Positions 11,970-26,160 of a stretch of 34,291 bases of DNA are shown here, in pieces. A model generated the notes under the pieces. It saw only the letters and a program-made list of their open reading frames with translations. It did no database searches and was not told the DNA's origin. Both the position numbers and the translations under genes were made by a program. Each line of letters begins with the position of its first letter. Position 1 is the first letter of the stretch. This DNA is from a virus, in the IMG/VR virus record IMGVR_UViG_3300049827_000201, positions 1 to 34,291 of that record; one strand, given 5' to 3'.

Positions 11970-13688
11970 TTATACGCTTGTTTGTTCAACACTCATTTGC
12001 ATCAACGCGGAAGTAAGATGATCGATTACCTTTTCGGCATCGCTGTGCAAGTCTTCGCCGTCAATGCTTCCTGCCGTTATCTGCATTAAAGGTTGGTTAA
12101 AGTTCATTGTTATTGTTTTCGATGACCCTAGTCCGCCAGTTGTTGCCATGCCTCCAGCTGGAGCGGCTGCATCTCCAAAAGGATTGTCGCCTATTGGTGG
12201 CTTTGTTGGCGTTCCTTTATTATAACCTAACTTTTTATTTTCTTCTTCTAGCCTTTTTAATTCTGCTTCCGCCGTTGCTTGTATTCCTTTTTCCTGTTGC
12301 TGTTTTATTTTTGCTGCAACTTCAGGCTTCACCGATTCCCCTGCCTTTTGATTATATATTACTTTTTCTAGCAACCCTTGTTCAGCAACTGCCTCTTTAT
12401 CTCTTAAATCGGCATAATATTCGAACATTTTCACATAATCAGTGCCAAAATCGCCATAACCTAAATATGCCCCTAATATTCCAACACCAGCACCGCCGAG
12501 TTCATTCTCTAAACCAGCCTTTTCAGCTGTGGTTAAAGTTCCAGTTTTTGCTTTTTCAGCTAAAACGCGGTATCGCGTAGCTTGACTTTGTTTTTTGCCT
12601 ATTTTTTCAGAGGCTTCTTTAATCATTTCATTTTGCGACGCGATGCGTATTTTTTGAATTAGCGTGTCATTGGCTTGCCCTTGAGCTATTGCTATATCGG
12701 TAACAGTTGATTTTTCGGTTAATAAATTACCGTAATATTCGCCAAAATTTGTATTTAATTCATCTATTAATATTTTTTTCTGTTCTAAAGGCAGATTCCC
12801 TTTTTTTAAGACTTCAAACATGGCATTCATTTCCGCTTTTTGTTCTGTCATTACCTCGCTGTTTTTTGGAGTAACCCATGATGAAAAAGCCTTGCCAATA
12901 TCAGTACCTATCGATAAAATACCTTTTAATTCTCCAGACCATGCCTGAAACATACCAAACATACCCGTTTGCCATGTACCTATCATAGTACTTTCCATGC
13001 CGCCTACGGTTTTTGCCATACGTTCACTCATACCATAAAATCGCCCCCCCGCGCTGGTAGCGTCTTCCATAGCCTGTTGAACCATCTTAAAAGATATTTG
13101 CCCTTTGGACATTTTTTCCCTTAAACTTTCGTACGAAACGCCAGTTTTTTGAGCTATTTCTTGCAATGGGTTAAATCCTGCGTTTATCATTTGTAATAAA
13201 TCGCCGCCAGTTAGCTTCCCTGCCGCTCCTACCTGACCAAATACAAGGCTTAACCGTGAAAACCTATCCGTATCGCCGCCCGAAATGTCTGATAACATGC
13301 TTAAATCTTTGCCTACTTTATCCGCCGAAACGCCAAAGTTTAACAAAGTTCGCCCTGCCTCATAAATAGAGCTGTCTGTCATTGGCGTTACGTCCGCCAA
13401 ATGCTTTAATTCGCCTTGTAACGCCTGTGCCTTTTCCTTCGAGCCTGTCATTACTTCGAACGAAAGCATAGTTTGCTCCATTTGCTTACCAAAGTCGTAA
13501 ACCTGTTTCGCCCCTGAACCTAGCAACGATAAACCTTGTTTAAGCATTTCGAACTTAAACAACCCACTAAAAACGCTGCCAGTCTTATCCGCCGATGCGC
13601 TCAACCCTGCCAATTTCTGATCAATAGCCTCAATGCCCTTTACCGCATTACCTTCAACTTGTATCCTAAATCCGTATATTTCAGCCAT
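11970..13688 (-). CDS. tail tape measure protein
   Basis: The 572-residue protein begins with a helical region. It then has the conserved tape-measure N-terminal domain: FGKQMEQTMLSFEVMTGSKEKA, LADVTPMTDSSIYEAGRTLL, SRLSLVFGQVGAAGKLTGGDL and QMINAGFNPLQEIAQKTG. A central amphipathic helical part and a Gly/Ala-rich hydrophobic end follow. It lies directly after the tail assembly chaperone with its frameshift, the canonical arrangement. Tape measure proteins set tail length and are released into the cell during infection. At 572 residues the tail would be short (rule of about 1.5 angstrom per residue). Some glycine- and alanine-rich stretches may cross the host membrane. Confidence 0.8.
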   Translation of the reverse strand: MAEIYGFRIQVEGNAVKGIEAIDQKLAGLSASADKTGSVFSGLFKFEMLKQGLSLLGSGAKQVYDFGKQMEQTMLSFEVMTGSKEKAQALQGELKHLADVTPMTDSSIYEAGRTLLNFGVSADKVGKDLSMLSDISGGDTDRFSRLSLVFGQVGAAGKLTGGDLLQMINAGFNPLQEIAQKTGVSYESLREKMSKGQISFKMVQQAMEDATSAGGRFYGMSERMAKTVGGMESTMIGTWQTGMFGMFQAWSGELKGILSIGTDIGKAFSSWVTPKNSEVMTEQKAEMNAMFEVLKKGNLPLEQKKILIDELNTNFGEYYGNLLTEKSTVTDIAIAQGQANDTLIQKIRIASQNEMIKEASEKIGKKQSQATRYRVLAEKAKTGTLTTAEKAGLENELGGAGVGILGAYLGYGDFGTDYVKMFEYYADLRDKEAVAEQGLLEKVIYNQKAGESVKPEVAAKIKQQQEKGIQATAEAELKRLEEENKKLGYNKGTPTKPPIGDNPFGDAAAPAGGMATTGGLGSSKTITMNFNQPLMQITAGSIDGEDLHSDAEKVIDHLTSALMQMSVEQTSV

Positions 13689-13698
13689 TGAGTAATTT

Positions 13699-13932
13699 TT
13701 ATCTGTTATTCATAAACGGAGCGTGCATCAACCGTAAAACCTCATCTAAAACAATCGATGCGTCTATATACTTGCGCGGTGTCAAGTCTTCGACTTCACG
13801 CTCCGTGTAATTTAAAAAAGCCCTGAATAGTGAGGTTTTATAAAATACAGGGTCTCTAATTATTAATTCGTCTCGGGCTTTTTCGCTGTCTTCACTTGCT
13901 GCCCGTAATTCATCAAATAGTCGAAAAAAAAA
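13699..13932 (-). CDS. -1 frameshift extension of the tail assembly chaperone (GT-like)
   Basis: An open frame follows the chaperone in the -1 frame and ends 10 bases before the tape measure start. Its residues (LFDELRAASEDSEKARDEL, VFYKTSLFRAFLNYTERE, ASIVLDEVLRLMHAPFM) form a compact helical domain with no start codon of its own at its beginning. The slip site is the nine-T run at 13924-13932 on the minus strand, read by the chaperone as CCT TTT TTT TTC; it contains the slippery heptamer T TTT TTC. A -1 shift there gives a chaperone of about 202 residues. This is the conserved gpG/gpGT arrangement of long-tailed phages. Confidence 0.7.
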   Translation of the reverse strand, partial: FFFRLFDELRAASEDSEKARDELIIRDPVFYKTSLFRAFLNYTEREVEDLTPRKYIDASIVLDEVLRLMHAPFMNNR

Positions 13933-14306
13933 GGTGTTGCCGCCTCTAAGAACGATTCTCCAAACGCCAAAACGGCGAATGTATCATTCATAAATTCGGT
14001 TTTATTTTGTAGTGTAAATTTGTTTCCTGTTTTGTCGCCGCTTTCATCAATAATTAATAACGTGTCAATAGCGTGTATCGTAAAATCGTATAAGATATTT
14101 GGATCGGCAATAATAGTAGTTTCTGAATCGCCAATCCGCTGTACACTTCTATACATGGGTTTCATCATAAAGAATAAACGAGCCTGTGAACGGTCGTTTT
14201 GGCTTAGGTCTTTGAACGTAGCAATCATCTCTACGTGTTCATATTCCACTTTCCCATCCACGGTTATGCCGCCCGTTGCCGAAAGGAATTTTAATTTCTG
14301 TTCCAT
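13863..14306 (-). CDS. tail assembly chaperone (gpG-like, zero frame product)
   Basis: The 147-residue product lies between the tail tube and the tape measure, as tail chaperones do. It starts MEQKLKFLSATGGITVDGKV and is helix-rich with YDFTIHAIDTLLIIDESG and FMNDTFAVLAFGESFLEA. The nine-T slippery run lies at codons 125-128. Most ribosomes would end here, giving the short form, and a fraction would shift to -1 to make the longer form. The two forms together coat the tape measure and promote tube polymerisation. The frame after the slip in this ORF is only about 20 codons, which agrees with it being the terminating product. Confidence 0.65.
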   Translation of the reverse strand: MEQKLKFLSATGGITVDGKVEYEHVEMIATFKDLSQNDRSQARLFFMMKPMYRSVQRIGDSETTIIADPNILYDFTIHAIDTLLIIDESGDKTGNKFTLQNKTEFMNDTFAVLAFGESFLEAATPFFFDYLMNYGQQVKTAKKPETN

Positions 14307-19943: not shown

Positions 19944-20218
19944 TAGGTCAAAAAATATCGCCTATATTAGTGGAACTCGAAGCGGCGTTAATAGAATACG
20001 AAATATACAACGGATCACAACCGAACTATACAATAGAAGGTTTTAGAGCGGCGACAAAGATTTTTATGTCCGTTTTGCTCGATAAAATGTACAACTTGCA
20101 ATGCAATGAAAACTTAGATACAGACGATAAACTCAATATGGCTCATTCGGCTGGTATTGCGTTAAAAGACTTGGTTAAAACTTACACGGATATTGACACA
20201 ACTAAATTATATGCCTAA
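19940..20218 (+). CDS. conserved phage protein, third gene of the rightward cluster
   Basis: The 92-residue helical protein has phrases such as PNYTIEGFRAATKIFMSVLLDKMYNLQ and ALKDLVKTYTDIDTTKLY. I recall similar proteins in other Bacteroidota Mu-like phages, usually of unknown function and often with the same FRAATKIFMSVLMDK core. It overlaps the HTH gene start by 4 bases (ATGA). Its stop overlaps the end of the convergent tail gene by 12 bases, tail to tail. Function is not known; the regular hydrophobic spacing suggests helical oligomerisation. Confidence 0.55.
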   Translation: MIGQKISPILVELEAALIEYEIYNGSQPNYTIEGFRAATKIFMSVLLDKMYNLQCNENLDTDDKLNMAHSAGIALKDLVKTYTDIDTTKLYA

Positions 20219-21013
20219 CTGAACAACACTAATCGTAACATCTGCAATACCACTCAATGGAGCTGACAAAACAATATTGCCAGTTCTATTCGTAGTTGAT
20301 GCGTTTGCCGTTGCTGTAATAGTTACAGTTGCATCTCCAAAGCCTTCATAAATATCAACAGCGAGCCACGGTGGGATAGATTGAATAATCCACGGCGTTG
20401 TTGCTGTTACGTCGAACGTTCCTATACTATTTATTGGTTTATCAATATTAACCGTTAATGGTGTTGCCGAAAACGACAAATCACTTAGCGGCACTTGCTC
20501 GACTTTTTGCAGGGTGGTATCGGAATACACGATATGCGAAGTTCGAGCGTCCAACGCAATAGAGCTGTATATTACTTGATAACCTGGTATCATTCCGCCG
20601 TCGTTTTTTTGCAATGCTGGGGCTTTCGATACATCTTCAAAATTTATCTTAAAGCTATATATTTGCTCGACATCTCTAAAAGCCTGTGTTAACCATTGCT
20701 TGTAATTAAAATGGTTTACAATGGTTTCAATAATTCCGTAACTGCCAGTTGAAAATGCTTGATCGGGAGAGAGGTCGGCGTTTGAGTCAATAAAGTAACA
20801 CCTTAACACCCAGTTCCACTCCGCTTGAGTAACGCCGCCCGAAAGTTGCTGCATGTCAGGGCTGTCACCTAAGCCAACAATAACTAATGGTAGGTTGTGA
20901 CTTGGCGTTTCGCTTTCGTCGAATTGCGTATCACGTAATACGGTTGTGCCAATATCGTTTATAAATATTTCCTGTACTTCGCCGCAAACGGCATCTATTA
21001 GTTGCTGTATCAT
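20207..21013 (-). CDS. tail terminator / neck-like protein with C-terminal BACON domain
   Basis: The 268-residue protein has an N-terminal domain with phrases such as LPLVIVGLGDSPDMQQLSGG, AEWNWVLRCYFIDSNA and IIETIVNHFNYKQWL, like tail-completion or terminator proteins. The last 85 residues are a BACON-like beta domain: TTPWIIQSIPPWLAV, then GFGDATVTITATANASTTNRTG and ISVVQLGI. The TPWI... WL...G.G...V.ITATANAS..NRTG...L...... ISVVQ pattern is characteristic. BACON domains are common in Bacteroidota and in crAss-like phages. The start overlaps the stop of a 53-residue gene as ATGA. The neck role is inferred from order (gpG-like gene upstream). Confidence 0.55.
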   Translation of the reverse strand: MIQQLIDAVCGEVQEIFINDIGTTVLRDTQFDESETPSHNLPLVIVGLGDSPDMQQLSGGVTQAEWNWVLRCYFIDSNADLSPDQAFSTGSYGIIETIVNHFNYKQWLTQAFRDVEQIYSFKINFEDVSKAPALQKNDGGMIPGYQVIYSSIALDARTSHIVYSDTTLQKVEQVPLSDLSFSATPLTVNIDKPINSIGTFDVTATTPWIIQSIPPWLAVDIYEGFGDATVTITATANASTTNRTGNIVLSAPLSGIADVTISVVQLGI

Positions 21014-21176: not shown

Positions 21177-21683
21177 TTATAATTTTGCAAACTTCTTAAA
21201 CGCTTCCATGCGTTGTTGTTTGAGTTTATCTTTTATTCTTAATGCTAATTTTCTTGACATTCCTAAAAACTTTCGTTTCGGTATTCGTACCCATTTTTTA
21301 CCGAACTTTTGTGATCCACCCTCGTTATTTTTCTTTGCATAAGGTATTAAGTTGAGGTTAACACCTATGTTCACCCCCTTTGCTGATGTGCGATAGGTAA
21401 TGTTGTCGCGCATGTTGCCAGACTGCAAAAGAATTGGATTTGCAGAATTATAAACGCTGCCTTTTACGCCTTTTCGTGAATCGTAAATATCATTCGTAAC
21501 CTTACTTCGCTCCTTCCACTTTTGCGCGGGACCAACTGATTCAACAAACCCTTGTGCCGTGAAATTCTCTTTTTGCACTATCACCCCTATACGCCCTATT
21601 GTCATTGGTGCGATCTTTTGTTTGCGTTTAAATTCTTCTGCGCTGTTATGAAAATCTCTTGCAAGGTCGCGAAGTGTTTTCAT
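21177..21683 (-). CDS. phage virion morphogenesis protein (Mu gpG-like)
   Basis: The 168-residue protein fits the phage virion morphogenesis / tail completion family (PF05069). It is basic, starts with KTLRDLARDFHNSAEEFKRKQ, and has the conserved cluster YAKKNNEGGSQKFGKKWVRIPKRKFLG, corresponding to the H..GG.....IP.R.FLG signature, followed by a helix with RIKDKLKQQRMEAFK. Mu gpG acts at the head-tail junction during assembly. It is adjacent to the PBECR-like gene with overlapping ends and is followed by a small gene. Confidence 0.7.
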   Translation of the reverse strand: MKTLRDLARDFHNSAEEFKRKQKIAPMTIGRIGVIVQKENFTAQGFVESVGPAQKWKERSKVTNDIYDSRKGVKGSVYNSANPILLQSGNMRDNITYRTSAKGVNIGVNLNLIPYAKKNNEGGSQKFGKKWVRIPKRKFLGMSRKLALRIKDKLKQQRMEAFKKFAKL

Positions 21684-22072
21684 TTTAAGAATTTAATACC
21701 TTTTCGGTATAGGTTAATATTAGAAATTGTATTGATAGCCGTTTTCACTACTTCGCCGCCGTTGGTAGTTACGCAAAATAGGTGTGTATCGTCTTTGAGT
21801 ATGTAGTTTATTATTGCGACTTTCTGATCGTTTTGATTTTCCCAAAGCCCCCATATTTCGTCGGGGCTTGTTATCGCCATTGGTAGGTGTTCAATGCCTC
21901 TAGGGTTCTTCTTTACGATGTTTAGCGACTTGTTAGTAAATTGCACGTTAAACATATATTCACTGTTTTGGAATATTACCGTGCCAGTCTTTTCGAGGTG
22001 GTATTTTCCTTCCCACTCTTTAATGAGTGATAGTAGTGCTGTTATTGGTAGCTTTTTTGTTTTTATAGTCAT
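21680..22072 (-). CDS. PBECR-like nuclease domain protein next to MuF
   Basis: The 130-residue protein resembles the phage barnase-EndoU-colicin E5/D-RelE-like (PBECR) fold found at the C terminus of MuF proteins. Two elements show this: AITSPDEIWGLWENQNDQKV, then INYILKDDTHLFCVTTNGGEV, and TAINTISNINLYRKG at the end. The D.IW...... ... V......... G.V.T.........R.G order is typical. The gene begins 2 bases after the MuF stop. A free-standing copy would act as a nuclease injected with, or packaged in, the head. The catalytic residues of the family are not certain by eye, and toxin activity is inferred. Confidence 0.5.
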   Translation of the reverse strand: MTIKTKKLPITALLSLIKEWEGKYHLEKTGTVIFQNSEYMFNVQFTNKSLNIVKKNPRGIEHLPMAITSPDEIWGLWENQNDQKVAIINYILKDDTHLFCVTTNGGEVVKTAINTISNINLYRKGIKFLK

Positions 22073-22074
22073 GA

Positions 22075-22689
22075 CTAAAACATATTAGGTTTTGCTTTAT
22101 TGGCGTTTTTCAATAGTTCTTTGTATGTGTGTGTAATTGGCATGATGCCGTCAATGCCTACGTTACCTTCGAATCCTTCGCCGATGTTTGATTTATATTT
22201 ATCGAGTTCTTCACTTGTTAGTGGCGTTCCTTCGTCGGTGGCTTCGGCTGTGCAGCGGCAATTCCAATCCAATGGCGGCCAGTAACCTTGTGCTTTTGCA
22301 TCATCAATGCGAAATACTTTTCCGTCTAATTTTTCATGATGTTTACGTACTCGACTATCGCCGCGGGTTTCGTACTGAAAATACGGAAACGCCTCCCTCG
22401 ACTGCCAAATATCTTTCCACTTTTCTGCCATTACCGCTCCACGCCCTGCAAGGTCATATTCGACGCGCATCCATTGTTCAAACTTAGCTGTTACTGTTGG
22501 TGCTACACTTTGGAACTCTGCGAAGGATCGCTTTTTGCCGTTCTCGTCGAAAACCATTTTTTGTAGCATTGCCATTTCTGCGAGAGATTTAGCCGCCGAA
22601 AACTGAAACGTATTAAGAACATACTTCTCCCAATAATCAGTATTAGTAAATTCAGAGTAATCAGTGGAAATAGACATACCAGCAACCAT
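22075..22689 (-). CDS. MuF-like minor head (head morphogenesis) protein
   Basis: The 204-residue frame holds the MuF signature: FPYFQYETRGDSRVRKHHEKL at 101-121 and WPPLDWNCRC at 137-146, with the Y.T..D.RVR..H..LDG and PP..WNCRC pattern. MuF proteins act in head assembly and DNA injection. The first ATG at 22689 gives a short version. The frame stays open for 68 more codons upstream, coding residues in character with the family (PKIPKSLYDAEIEYAYNN, then TPIYTAYNNAFFGVM), but with no ATG, GTG or TTG. It joins the portal frame by a -1 shift at A10 (22863-22872). See the separate entry. Confidence 0.75.
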   Translation of the reverse strand: MVAGMSISTDYSEFTNTDYWEKYVLNTFQFSAAKSLAEMAMLQKMVFDENGKKRSFAEFQSVAPTVTAKFEQWMRVEYDLAGRGAVMAEKWKDIWQSREAFPYFQYETRGDSRVRKHHEKLDGKVFRIDDAKAQGYWPPLDWNCRCTAEATDEGTPLTSEELDKYKSNIGEGFEGNVGIDGIMPITHTYKELLKNANKAKPNMF

Positions 22690-22872
22690 AACGCCAAAAA
22701 AGGCGTTATTGTAAGCAGTGTAAATAGGCGTGTAAAGCTGTCCTTCGTTATTGTATGCATATTCAATTTCGGCATCGTATAGAGATTTTGGAATTTTTGG
22801 ATCGGCAAACGTTTTACCTGCTAAAGTTAAGTATTCACTACCTAACTGGATAACTTCACTACTTTTTTTTTT
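22690..22872 (-). other. start-less N-terminal coding of MuF and candidate -1 frameshift site in the portal 3' end
   Basis: The last codons of the portal gene read TTA AAA AAA AAA GTA GTG AAG (A10 at 22863-22872). One base earlier, the frame becomes AAA AAA AAA AGT AGT GAA and continues into MuF. The extension (VIQLGSEYLTLAGKTFADPK and so on) is protein-like and contains no start codon, so it has no independent initiation. A -1 ribosomal slip or RNA polymerase slippage at the ten A would create a portal-MuF fusion of about 730 residues. A missing A from a sequencing or assembly indel is the simplest rival explanation. Confidence 0.5.
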
Positions 22873-24266
22873 AATGATCCAAACAAAGTAGGTTTAGTAG
22901 CCATTTCAATTTCTTTAGGCTCTTTTTCTATTGGCTCGATTTCGGGCGTTGCAATATCCTCAATATATTCGGGTGAAATGCCTTGATCGATAAAAAAGTC
23001 AGTAGATAGCCGCTTCCCATTTTCTGCAAGTATTGCGCTAAGTTCTTTAATTTCAGGCATCTTATACGATTTGGCTTTGTTAATGCCAAACTTAGCTCCT
23101 TTCGGAAAGTTCTTGTAGAATTGCGATATTTTAGTGAGAAAATCGCCGTTTAGTTCGTTAATATGCCAGTTTATAAGCTGCTTAATGCCTTGCTCTAACT
23201 TTTGCATGTGAATGTCGCCCAAAGCTAATGACCCCTTTGACCCCACCGAACTTGTAAGTGTTGATAGTAAGATCAACTGCATTATGTCGTTAATCTTTTG
23301 CTCGTTAAAATCTTTGTAAATGCGATACGCTCCCGCCGTTCCTTGAGTTCCCTGTGTATATTCAATTTCAATAGTTTTCGCAATAGTACCGTCGGGATTA
23401 CGTGTGTAAGGTGCAACATGTGCCTTTTGTGGGTTCGCATTGGCGGCGATGTTTTCCGCTTCTAGCTTATAAGGATTAAATGTTTGATCTATGTCTGTTG
23501 AATTAGGGTCTTGAGCGTTTGAATTTTCGGGATAAAATACTTGCATAACAGGAAATGCCATGCGTTCCCCTGCTGAAATCCAGTTGTTATTATTCTGATT
23601 CATTGCGATAAAATCGCGACTTATAGGCTGCATCCACCCCAAAAAAGATTCGTAATTGGTAGACGGCTGTACGTATATAAGATTTAGGTAATCTTTGCAG
23701 TATGCACCATTGTAAAAGTTGTACGAATTTTCACGTAAGAACTTGTTTATGGGATCTATATTCTGTTGAGGATACTTGTACACCTCTTTTGTGATAGGGT
23801 CAAAGTTTAACACGGAAAAACCCCAAAACCACGAATAAACTAGCTCTTTGCGAAGTGTATTAAACCATTGCTCGGCGCAAAGAAACTCACTCCATTCTTC
23901 AATTTTGTTACCTTTCGAATCGTATAAGTAAACGGGGTTGTTTTCCACGCCAACGCCAATCTCACGAAATAAGTGTTGAATAAACGCCGATGAATTAAAC
24001 ACCCATGTAGTCATCGCTGCGTATTGAATAGGGTATGACTGGCGCATCACCTGCTCACATGCTGCCCTCCACGTTGTGAAGTTCCACTCTTGGTAGTAGT
24101 TAGAAGGAAATACCGAAGTCGAAACGTTCAGCCCTGCCAGTTTAGGCTGCATCAATGGATTAACGGACGGCGTTTGCCCCTGCGCTGGTATAGCTTGTTG
24201 ATTTGGTGCGCCGTATGCGAGTTGTAAGTATTTGCGGCGTTCCTGACGTGATTTTGATGTACCCAT
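22842..24266 (-). CDS. portal protein (DUF935, Mu gp29-like)
   Basis: The 474-residue protein has the DUF935 layout: N-terminal FTTWRAACEQVMRQSYPIQYAAMTTW, a middle ELVYSWFWGFSVLNFDPITKEV, and a later part IKQLINWHINELNGDFLTKI and AILAENGKRLSTDFFIDQGI. Portals of this family form the dodecameric ring through which DNA enters and leaves the head. It follows the DUF1320-like connector and terminase genes. The C-terminal tail, EIEPIEKEPKEIEMATK and then GSLKKKVVKLSS, carries the A10 run. The 3' end overlaps the start-less MuF region by about 30 bases, so fusion is possible. Confidence 0.75.
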   Translation of the reverse strand: MGTSKSRQERRKYLQLAYGAPNQQAIPAQGQTPSVNPLMQPKLAGLNVSTSVFPSNYYQEWNFTTWRAACEQVMRQSYPIQYAAMTTWVFNSSAFIQHLFREIGVGVENNPVYLYDSKGNKIEEWSEFLCAEQWFNTLRKELVYSWFWGFSVLNFDPITKEVYKYPQQNIDPINKFLRENSYNFYNGAYCKDYLNLIYVQPSTNYESFLGWMQPISRDFIAMNQNNNNWISAGERMAFPVMQVFYPENSNAQDPNSTDIDQTFNPYKLEAENIAANANPQKAHVAPYTRNPDGTIAKTIEIEYTQGTQGTAGAYRIYKDFNEQKINDIMQLILLSTLTSSVGSKGSLALGDIHMQKLEQGIKQLINWHINELNGDFLTKISQFYKNFPKGAKFGINKAKSYKMPEIKELSAILAENGKRLSTDFFIDQGISPEYIEDIATPEIEPIEKEPKEIEMATKPTLFGSLKKKVVKLSS

Positions 24267-24291: not shown

Positions 24292-24732
24292 TCAGCCTAT
24301 TGTTGCAAAAGATGACCGTATTAATGATGAGTTTGATATTTTCGCCGTGGCGGCTATTTCCATGCCTATTAAAGATTGCTGACCGTTACGTATTGCGAGT
24401 AAAATGTCATCTACCCATTTATTATTTTCGGTCATCTGTTCGGGCATAGCCGCTTGGTTTCCTGTTATATTTTTTATAGCTAATATCGACGTTATCTTGA
24501 CTAACAAAGGAAAACGATCAGTAGTTTTTGCCAGTTCAACATCAATGTTATATCGTTGACTTAGTGCGCTGCGAACCTCTGAATATGCAATGTCACAACC
24601 GATTTGCAAAGAAGTATCATCAACGGATAACTGCTTTTGCAACACTTGAAAAGGGCAATACCTTAGTAAGTCGTTTCCTGTTAAATATCCGAGCGTAAGG
24701 GCTTTTATGTCATCAATAGTAGCGGCTGCCAT
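24292..24732 (-). CDS. head-tail connector, DUF1320-like (Mu gp36-like)
   Basis: The 146-residue protein has the DUF1320 outline of Mu gp36: TIDDIKALTLGYLTGNDLLRY, then CDIAYSEVRSALSQRYNIDVEL, FPLLVKITSILAIKNIT and NNKWVDDILLAIRNGQQSL. The family typically starts with a YLT..DL motif and has a helix pair with an Arg-Tyr element. It acts in the head-neck connector. Its place between the terminase and portal genes is unlike Mu, where gp36 comes after the head genes, but is common in Bacteroidota contractile phages. The next gene (terL) ends 27 bases upstream of its start. Confidence 0.6.
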   Translation of the reverse strand: MAAATIDDIKALTLGYLTGNDLLRYCPFQVLQKQLSVDDTSLQIGCDIAYSEVRSALSQRYNIDVELAKTTDRFPLLVKITSILAIKNITGNQAAMPEQMTENNKWVDDILLAIRNGQQSLIGMEIAATAKISNSSLIRSSFATIG

Positions 24733-24759: not shown

Positions 24760-26160
24760 TTATAATGTAAATTTAGGCGCGCGTGAAATTTGCATCGTTG
24801 AATTTGGTTTCGAAGGCGTGAAACGGTTTTGGAAACGTTTAAATTCGTCGCTAAATGCTTGTACAATGAGGTCCTTAGAACAATCGAGTTGGTGCCCTAC
24901 AGGCTCATAACTCACGCCTGTTTTAGGGTCTGTAATGCGTTTTTTTAAAGTCCCTCCGTCTTTGTCTTGCTTGACTTCGATATAATCGTTTATACTATCT
25001 TTGCAATGTTCGCCTATTATTATTTCGGCAAACGGTAATGTACCATCAAAAATTGCGTTTACAAAGTCGCCAACCTGCGCAACTGGTGGTGCGTATGAGC
25101 CGAATTTATCCGTTATTCTATACCCTGCATTTTTTAACTGTTGTGTGAAAATATCAAAGAAAGATTGTTTATTTTCGTCGATGTTATTTCGTGCTTTTGT
25201 CGAAACGTCTCCATACATGAAAACCGAACCGCTATAACCTATTGTTTGCAACCATTTCGCCACTTTCTCACCAGCTCTTTTCGCGGTATTGTCAGGATCT
25301 TTACAGGGTAGTTCGTGAACTTGTTTTATTTGCCAAATGTCATTGACTTTTTGAAGCTGCCAAATAGACACAGCAATATACGGAAACACGTTGCTATCTA
25401 TTGAGATGTGAAATGTTTGGTTAATGTCGTACTTAACTGGCTTAACGTGTTTTGCAAGTTCAAAGCCTTTGTAAAATTCGCCGCCCGTTTTTAGTTGGAT
25501 ATCCCACGAACCTTCTACGAATACAATATATTCATATTTAGGCAGCATTTTTAAGCTTTCTAAATATTCTTTTGGAATATATGGGTTATCAAAAATTCTA
25601 GCTGGTATGTATGCTACACTATCATATATAACCTCTTTTAGCCACCCATTTGTCGGATTGGCAGTCATTATTATTTTACTTGGGCAATTTGGCGAATGAA
25701 ACCATGAACCAGCCCTTTCTATTATTTTATTAAATGTTACTAATTGGATTTCGTTTGCTTCGTCTATAAAAGCCCCGTTTATTTCTAAGCCCCTGAATCT
25801 GTTTAACTCCTTATCTGTATCATAGCTTTCAGCTAAAAAAACAAAAACACTACCGTTTTTTAGCTTTACTGTCATATCGTTTTGATTAAACGACTCTACA
25901 TATTGATTAAATCCATTTTCTAATATTTCTCTGAATGAGACTAATAATGTTCTTTTTAAAACAGGCAAACTCTGTCTTACAAATATCCACCTACTGTTTG
26001 GATATTTAAAAGCTAACGTGAAAGCGTAAAGTATTAAAAAATAAGACTTACCTCCTCTTATACTGCCTCCGTAAAGTACAATATTATTATTCTCGCATGC
26101 CTGATATGCTTCTATTTGTTTTGGTGTAGGTTTTATGATTTTATAGCCGTGCGTATTCAA
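24760..26160 (-). CDS. terL: terminase large subunit
   Basis: The 466-residue enzyme has an ATPase and a nuclease half. Walker A is GGSIRGGKS (31-39), Walker B is FIDEA (131-135), and the coupling motif is TANP (167-170). In the nuclease domain Asp255 (HISIDSN), Asp318 (FMYGDVS) and an Asp in GHQLDCSKD are likely metal ligands. It packages DNA into the prohead, using the portal, guided by the small subunit. The start overlaps the 3' end of the homing endonuclease by 20 bases, so it is probably coupled to it. The first 600 bases look more AT-rich than the rest. That could reflect co-conversion with the neighbouring homing gene, a weak idea. Confidence 0.85.
   Translation of the reverse strand: MNTHGYKIIKPTPKQIEAYQACENNNIVLYGGSIRGGKSYFLILYAFTLAFKYPNSRWIFVRQSLPVLKRTLLVSFREILENGFNQYVESFNQNDMTVKLKNGSVFVFLAESYDTDKELNRFRGLEINGAFIDEANEIQLVTFNKIIERAGSWFHSPNCPSKIIMTANPTNGWLKEVIYDSVAYIPARIFDNPYIPKEYLESLKMLPKYEYIVFVEGSWDIQLKTGGEFYKGFELAKHVKPVKYDINQTFHISIDSNVFPYIAVSIWQLQKVNDIWQIKQVHELPCKDPDNTAKRAGEKVAKWLQTIGYSGSVFMYGDVSTKARNNIDENKQSFFDIFTQQLKNAGYRITDKFGSYAPPVAQVGDFVNAIFDGTLPFAEIIIGEHCKDSINDYIEVKQDKDGGTLKKRITDPKTGVSYEPVGHQLDCSKDLIVQAFSDEFKRFQNRFTPSKPNSTMQISRAPKFTL

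Follow-up and report, generated by a model that had tools for sequence, protein, structure and literature searches.

The window, which is the whole of the 34,291-base virus record IMGVR_UViG_3300049827_000201, codes for a terminase, a gp36-like adaptor, a portal, and a MuF protein in Mu-like order on the minus strand. The features at and around the portal-MuF joint are as follows.

24760 to 26160, minus strand: terminase large subunit, located 5' of the adaptor gene; gene order as in Peternella_1
24292 to 24732, minus strand: head-tail adaptor (gp36/DUF1320-like), the 5' neighbour of the portal gene (phrog_195, E 8e-6)
22842 to 24266, minus strand: portal gene (Mu gp29-like; Pfam Portal_Mu) with an ATG start and a zero-frame product of 474 aa
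22842 to 22893, minus strand: portal/MuF overlap in which both frames are open and within which any slip must fall
22863 to 22872, minus strand (T10 on the plus strand): A10 run, the putative slippery site, with two in-phase A_AAA_AAA heptamers inside
22075 to 22872, minus strand: MuF (Phage_Mu_F) frame as read after a slip, -1 relative to the portal and 265 codons long between run and stop
22690 to 22872, minus strand: 61 start-less MuF codons corresponding to a linker and N-terminal helices, with no ATG, GTG, or TTG and with coding-like substitutions in relatives
22687 to 22689, minus strand: earliest ATG in frame with MuF, at residue 62 and inside a predicted helix

Both products meet the cut-offs for family membership: the portal matches Portal_Mu (PF06074; E 5e-13, 49.4 bits against a cut-off of 23.9), and MuF matches Phage_Mu_F (PF04233; E 5e-14, 53.5 bits against 29.6) as well as phrog_19194 (E 3e-32), which confirms the family-like MuF sequence noticed in a preliminary description of this DNA. 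Solved structures related to the portal part are 9khx and 8rka, and a PDB fold search with the window MuF model gave no match. The portal ORF ends in GGA TCA TTA AAA AAA AAA GTA GTG AAG TTA TCC AGT TAG, and the MuF frame is open from 22893 to 22075, with 68 codons between the preceding stop and the first start codon; the preliminary description had placed MuF in the -1 frame relative to the portal end TTA AAA AAA AAA GTA and had reported the 68 codons as free of ATG, GTG, and TTG, and both statements are correct. One criterion for programmed frameshifting, a downstream ORF that overlaps the upstream one in a different frame and lacks its own start, is thus met. In an AlphaFold model, the window MuF has helices at residues 29-41 (pLDDT ~91) and 48-65 (~56-83); translation begun at residue 62 would omit the first of these and break into the second, and from the model the ATG at 22689 is therefore unlikely to be the true start. 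The gene directly after MuF (21680 to 22072, minus strand) resembles a PBECR2 nuclease domain at E 2e-5, which falls short of the curated cut-off; PBECR2 domains are also found linked to MuF. Inside the structural module, at 20207 to 21013 on the minus strand, lies the gene for a protein whose C-terminal part is a BACON domain (E 2e-9).

The window portal as the sole query found no relatives in the viral collection, and alignments were required; using the portals of the window and of a second locus (L012) as scan queries yields 19 further loci with 41-54% portal identity. With these two included, 20 contigs span the joint, and collapsing those with identical joints leaves 14 distinct loci, 12 of which have exactly A10 (18 of the 20 contigs, the window counted), so that the comparison of run length in relatives proposed at the outset comes out in favour of a conserved run. 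The others are L277, with an A12 joint, and L276, which has no run and starts MuF at an ATG 13 nt before the portal stop; one of the twelve A10 loci (L265/L266) has MuF in the +1 frame, not -1. In most members of the lineage a KKK-x-ILIG-x-EY peptide at the MuF N terminus follows directly after the run, with no start codon between, and differences in the pre-start part of MuF number 1305, 1039, and 1862 at codon positions 1, 2, and 3, respectively (all pairs, not independent). The cultured phage Peternella_1 (NC_062754) also has an A10 joint. In this phage (L003, NC_062754.1, 2741 to 4032), MuF gp33 is annotated from a TTG with a 98-nt gap after portal gp34, and the joint suggests that the annotation misses the N terminus. 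A separate feature of this lineage is a large MuF insert in L275 (4356 to 6725) at the conserved Cys of a WNCRC motif; it begins CFPAGTQILT and ends HNC, and looks like an intein.

Relatives in the wider family were gathered by protein alignment from IMG/VR, a phage collection, and Bacteroidota genomes, and MuF proteins were collapsed at ≥80% identity to give 175 non-redundant adjacent portal-MuF loci, with the caveats that related loci are not independent and that most are metagenome assemblies. MuF is in the -1 frame relative to the portal in 126 loci, fused in frame in 33, in the +1 frame in 12, and in frame 0 in 4. An in-phase A6N or T6N heptamer lies within the overlap in 112 of the 126 -1 loci, compared to 2.9 predicted by windows of equal size taken from other parts of these portal genes, and 121 loci qualify when any X_XXY_YYZ is counted, with 11.5 expected; most heptamers are T_TTT_TTC and A_AAA_AAA/G, with G_GGA_AAG, A_AAT_TTC, and A_AAT_TTT being rarer. 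A10 runs are found 43 times at the junction in the 175 relatives, whereas the remaining 417,585 nt of these genes contain a single one, and the criterion that a slippery sequence be conserved in the overlap beyond chance is satisfied both in the family and, through A10, in the window's own lineage. Pre-start MuF differences in 25 wider-family pairs (one pair counted twice) are distributed over codon positions 1, 2, and 3 as 250/219/402, with a pN/pS of 0.51, a pattern indicating that this stretch is translated in the MuF frame.

MuF could also be made as a separate protein, either from the ATG at 22689, from a non-canonical codon, or by ribosomes that re-initiate once they have passed the portal stop. 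This is the arrangement in a minority clade (L041, L051, L080, and L244) and also in L276, where a MuF ATG adjoins the portal stop, and relatives of this kind had been named in advance as grounds for refuting a slip; they do exist, but only without a slip site, and are thus exceptions that fit slippage. For the window, a separate MuF is improbable, as coding constraint reaches up to the run and a start at 22689 not only cuts a predicted helix but also removes 61 residues conserved across the lineage.

The slip sites are of two main classes. Where the -1 loci have T runs, 61 of 64 have six Ts followed by a C and share one codon phase, and T_TTT_TTC is followed 5-6 nt downstream by a GC-rich stem in ~90% of cases, mostly of 6-8 bp and typically GCCCCG...CGGGGC. 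The mean stem score in this T6C class is 18.3 versus 4.4 for shuffled sequences, several base-pair types occur at each stem position, and the 60 nt downstream have a mean MFE of -19.4 versus -12.3 for background; structure is also present downstream of mixed heptamers and short A runs (MFE -15.8 and -15.5, respectively). The A9-A11 class, in contrast, has no downstream structure beyond the shuffled level (stem score 4.4 versus 3.7; MFE -9.5 versus -8.6 for background), its run lengths peak at 10, and its codon phases are used about equally (14/10/7; chi-square p 0.30). A stimulatory structure 5-9 nt after the heptamer, as expected for ribosomal slippage, is therefore present in the T6C class but absent from the window and the A9-A11 class, whereas A10 meets the criterion for transcriptional slippage, a homopolymer of ~9 or more acting independently of codon phase. 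The window does have a modest hairpin ~15 nt after the run (60-nt MFE -14.5, z -2.0), unlike the class average; for the A9-A11 class, a hairpin as a stimulator at A10 was considered and rejected, structure there being not above the shuffled level. The RNA-DNA hybrid in RNA polymerase has a length close to ten.

These two signal classes are observed by sequence comparison, as are conservation of the joint, the relation between the frames, the lack of a start, and the pre-start coding constraint; the mechanisms assigned to the classes are readings. Given the hairpins of one class and, for the other, the even phases, the length peak, and the lack of structure, the T_TTT_TTC group is read as ribosomal -1 frameshifting in its textbook form, and the A10 group, window included, more probably reflects slippage by RNA polymerase. 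The preliminary description had invoked tail chaperones, implying a ribosomal slip; this holds for the T_TTT_TTC class, but for A10 the evidence leans toward the polymerase. In Escherichia coli reporters, poly-A cassettes of another gene give 10%, 40%, and 63% frameshift product at 7, 9, and 11 As (PMC3711429).

Ribosomal -1 frameshifting at A_AAA_AAA nonetheless remains the main alternative for the window, with the length of A10 only adding tandem slippery codons. It is kept alive by the frame bias at A9-A11 sites, where MuF is nearly always in -1 (41 loci) and is in +1 in L081 and, less cleanly, in L265/L266; a ribosomal slip gives this bias directly, whereas polymerase slippage accounts for it only if insertions dominate. 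Moreover, sister loci with A6-8, G_GGA_AAG, A_AAT_TTC, or T_TTT_TTC and downstream structure look ribosomal, and an in-phase A_AAA_AAA is inevitable in an A10 by construction. However, the A9-A11 loci lack the structure that the other main classes have, the codon phase that gives A_AAA_AAG is not preferred, and A10 or T10 runs with MuF in +1 (L081 and L075) are out of reach for a -1 slip, such that a ribosomal slip at A10 is possible but is the less favoured route. We divide the likelihood at the window A10 about 60:35 between polymerase and ribosome. L265/L266, with A10 and MuF in +1, were dropped as clean proof of polymerase slippage, because a MuF-frame ATG lies upstream of the run and independent initiation cannot be excluded there.

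Most loci with in-frame fusions retain the slip signals. An in-phase slip site is kept at the joint in 28 of the 33 (3.1 expected), all 12 fused relatives of the T6C type keep the hairpin at a spacer of 5-6, and a -1 slip in the fused relatives reaches a stop within 3-36 codons, which would leave the portal alone. Either product is thus reachable at these loci, whichever is the default. The arrangement resembles that of the unrelated gene dnaX (gamma/tau), in which the long product is in frame and a slip yields the short one. In a model of one fused relative (L204; overall model confidence low), the slip falls at about residue 420, in a low-confidence stretch (402-458) between portal and MuF. 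On a portal tree (FastTree, with many weakly supported forks), there are at least 13 changes between the hairpin and A10 types and at least 20 between slip and fused loci.

That 33 of the 175 relatives are fused in frame, and that homopolymers are error-prone, could suggest that the A run of the window was simply misread by one base in sequencing or assembly, in which case the real gene is an in-frame fusion, or a former fusion now broken. This rival, raised in the preliminary description, fails generally and is barely tenable: A10 recurs at the joint in many independent contigs, in relatives with only 41-54% portal identity, and in the cultured Peternella_1, the T_TTT_TTC class has the same -1 layout with just six Ts and a hairpin, and the fused relatives themselves keep the slip signals.

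The best explanation is programmed slippage at the joint, by either mechanism, to make a portal-MuF fusion, to which we assign a probability of about 0.86 in the absence of transcript, reporter, or protein data. Unslipped reading would give the plain portal of 474 aa and a slip at A10 a portal-MuF fusion of ~729 aa, in line with the fusion of about 730 residues first proposed, a proposal that the comparison strongly supports. By the most likely route at the window A10, RNA polymerase would add one A, and in the resulting A11 transcripts the frames would join without a ribosomal shift. A fraction of portal subunits would carry MuF on a flexible C-terminal linker, with programmed slippage setting the portal to portal-MuF ratio. 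Slippage itself, its efficiency, and incorporation into the virion are inferred, as is the purpose, namely, to bring a set number of MuF domains into the head while keeping them attached to the portal.

In the window phage and in most of its relatives from Bacteroidota hosts, a conserved slippery site lies at the end of the portal gene and, judged from sequence, should give both plain portal and portal with a MuF tail. A mixed portal ring is predicted, and we infer that partial fusion would control how many MuF domains sit at the portal. The portal is the DNA gate of the virion and would extend the short list of phage proteins whose programmed recoding is conserved; the fusion would provide a direct handle on the role of MuF, with stoichiometry and placement becoming testable. 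The family also offers a natural series at one joint where one kind of slippage, ribosomal or polymerase, appears to take the place of the other, and recoding would explain truncated or start-less MuF genes in databases, such as Peternella_1 gp33. With confidence only somewhat better than even, we propose that a large group of Bacteroidota phages has mosaic portal rings in which a set share of subunits carries an internal MuF, that slippage sets the ratio, that the ribosomal and polymerase mechanisms have been repeatedly swapped, and that fused genes run the switch in reverse, releasing plain portal.

Elsewhere in the window, a 147-aa gene (13863 to 14306, minus strand) just upstream of the tape measure gene (11970 to 13688) contains T9 at 13924 to 13932 followed by C. 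This is an in-phase T_TTT_TTC from which the -1 frame runs ~75 codons on to its own stop; it looks like a classical tail assembly chaperone frameshift, and a second slip site thus seems to be in use in the window phage.

A search of open-licence papers found no account of a programmed frameshift from portal into MuF, and the preliminary description knew of none; because the search was limited to such papers, the claim to novelty is provisional. A possible earlier hint is that PRFect lists MuF-like genes as 'false positive' predictions in actinobacteriophages, ascribed to fusions (PMC10885494). In-frame portal-MuF fusions are reported for Microbacterium phage clusters EA and EB (PMC7302621) and are also present in Porphyromonas phages, with the same two domains in the same order in one chain; these genes are described as plain fusions, whereas the Bacteroidota loci of this comparison mostly need a slip or keep a slip site that would also release the portal alone. 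In SPP1, the MuF-like gp7 binds the portal gp6 and is taken into the procapsid at low copy number (PMC6316719), but this association is non-covalent and involves two separate genes, whereas a covalent fusion is proposed for the window. The portal of the Mu-like phage JBD30 is a dodecamer with its crown and wing inside the head (PMC11445458).

Run-length-dependent frame changes with fused homologues in other species are known in the magnesium chelatase fs-genes, which use poly-A programmed frameshifting (PMC3711429) and in this resemble the proposed A10 slip, but are not phage structural genes. A minority of a virion protein gains a C-terminal extension by recoding in the T3/T7 major coat protein and in Lactobacillus phage A2 and Listeria phage PSA (PMC5009743), although there it is the major capsid or tail protein that is extended, and here a MuF domain would be added to the portal. 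The tail assembly chaperones G/GT of lambda and others, as summarized in PMC6316719 from Xu, Hendrix and Duda 2004, likewise join adjacent ORFs of the structural module in a fraction of the product by a -1 slip, and SPP1 17.5 uses UUUUUUC, the heptamer of the T6C class (PMC6316719). The portal-MuF system differs from these chaperones in that the pair consists of the portal, which forms a 12-mer in the virion, followed by MuF, that many of its sites are A10 without a stimulator, and that in its fused genes the switch can work in the opposite direction.
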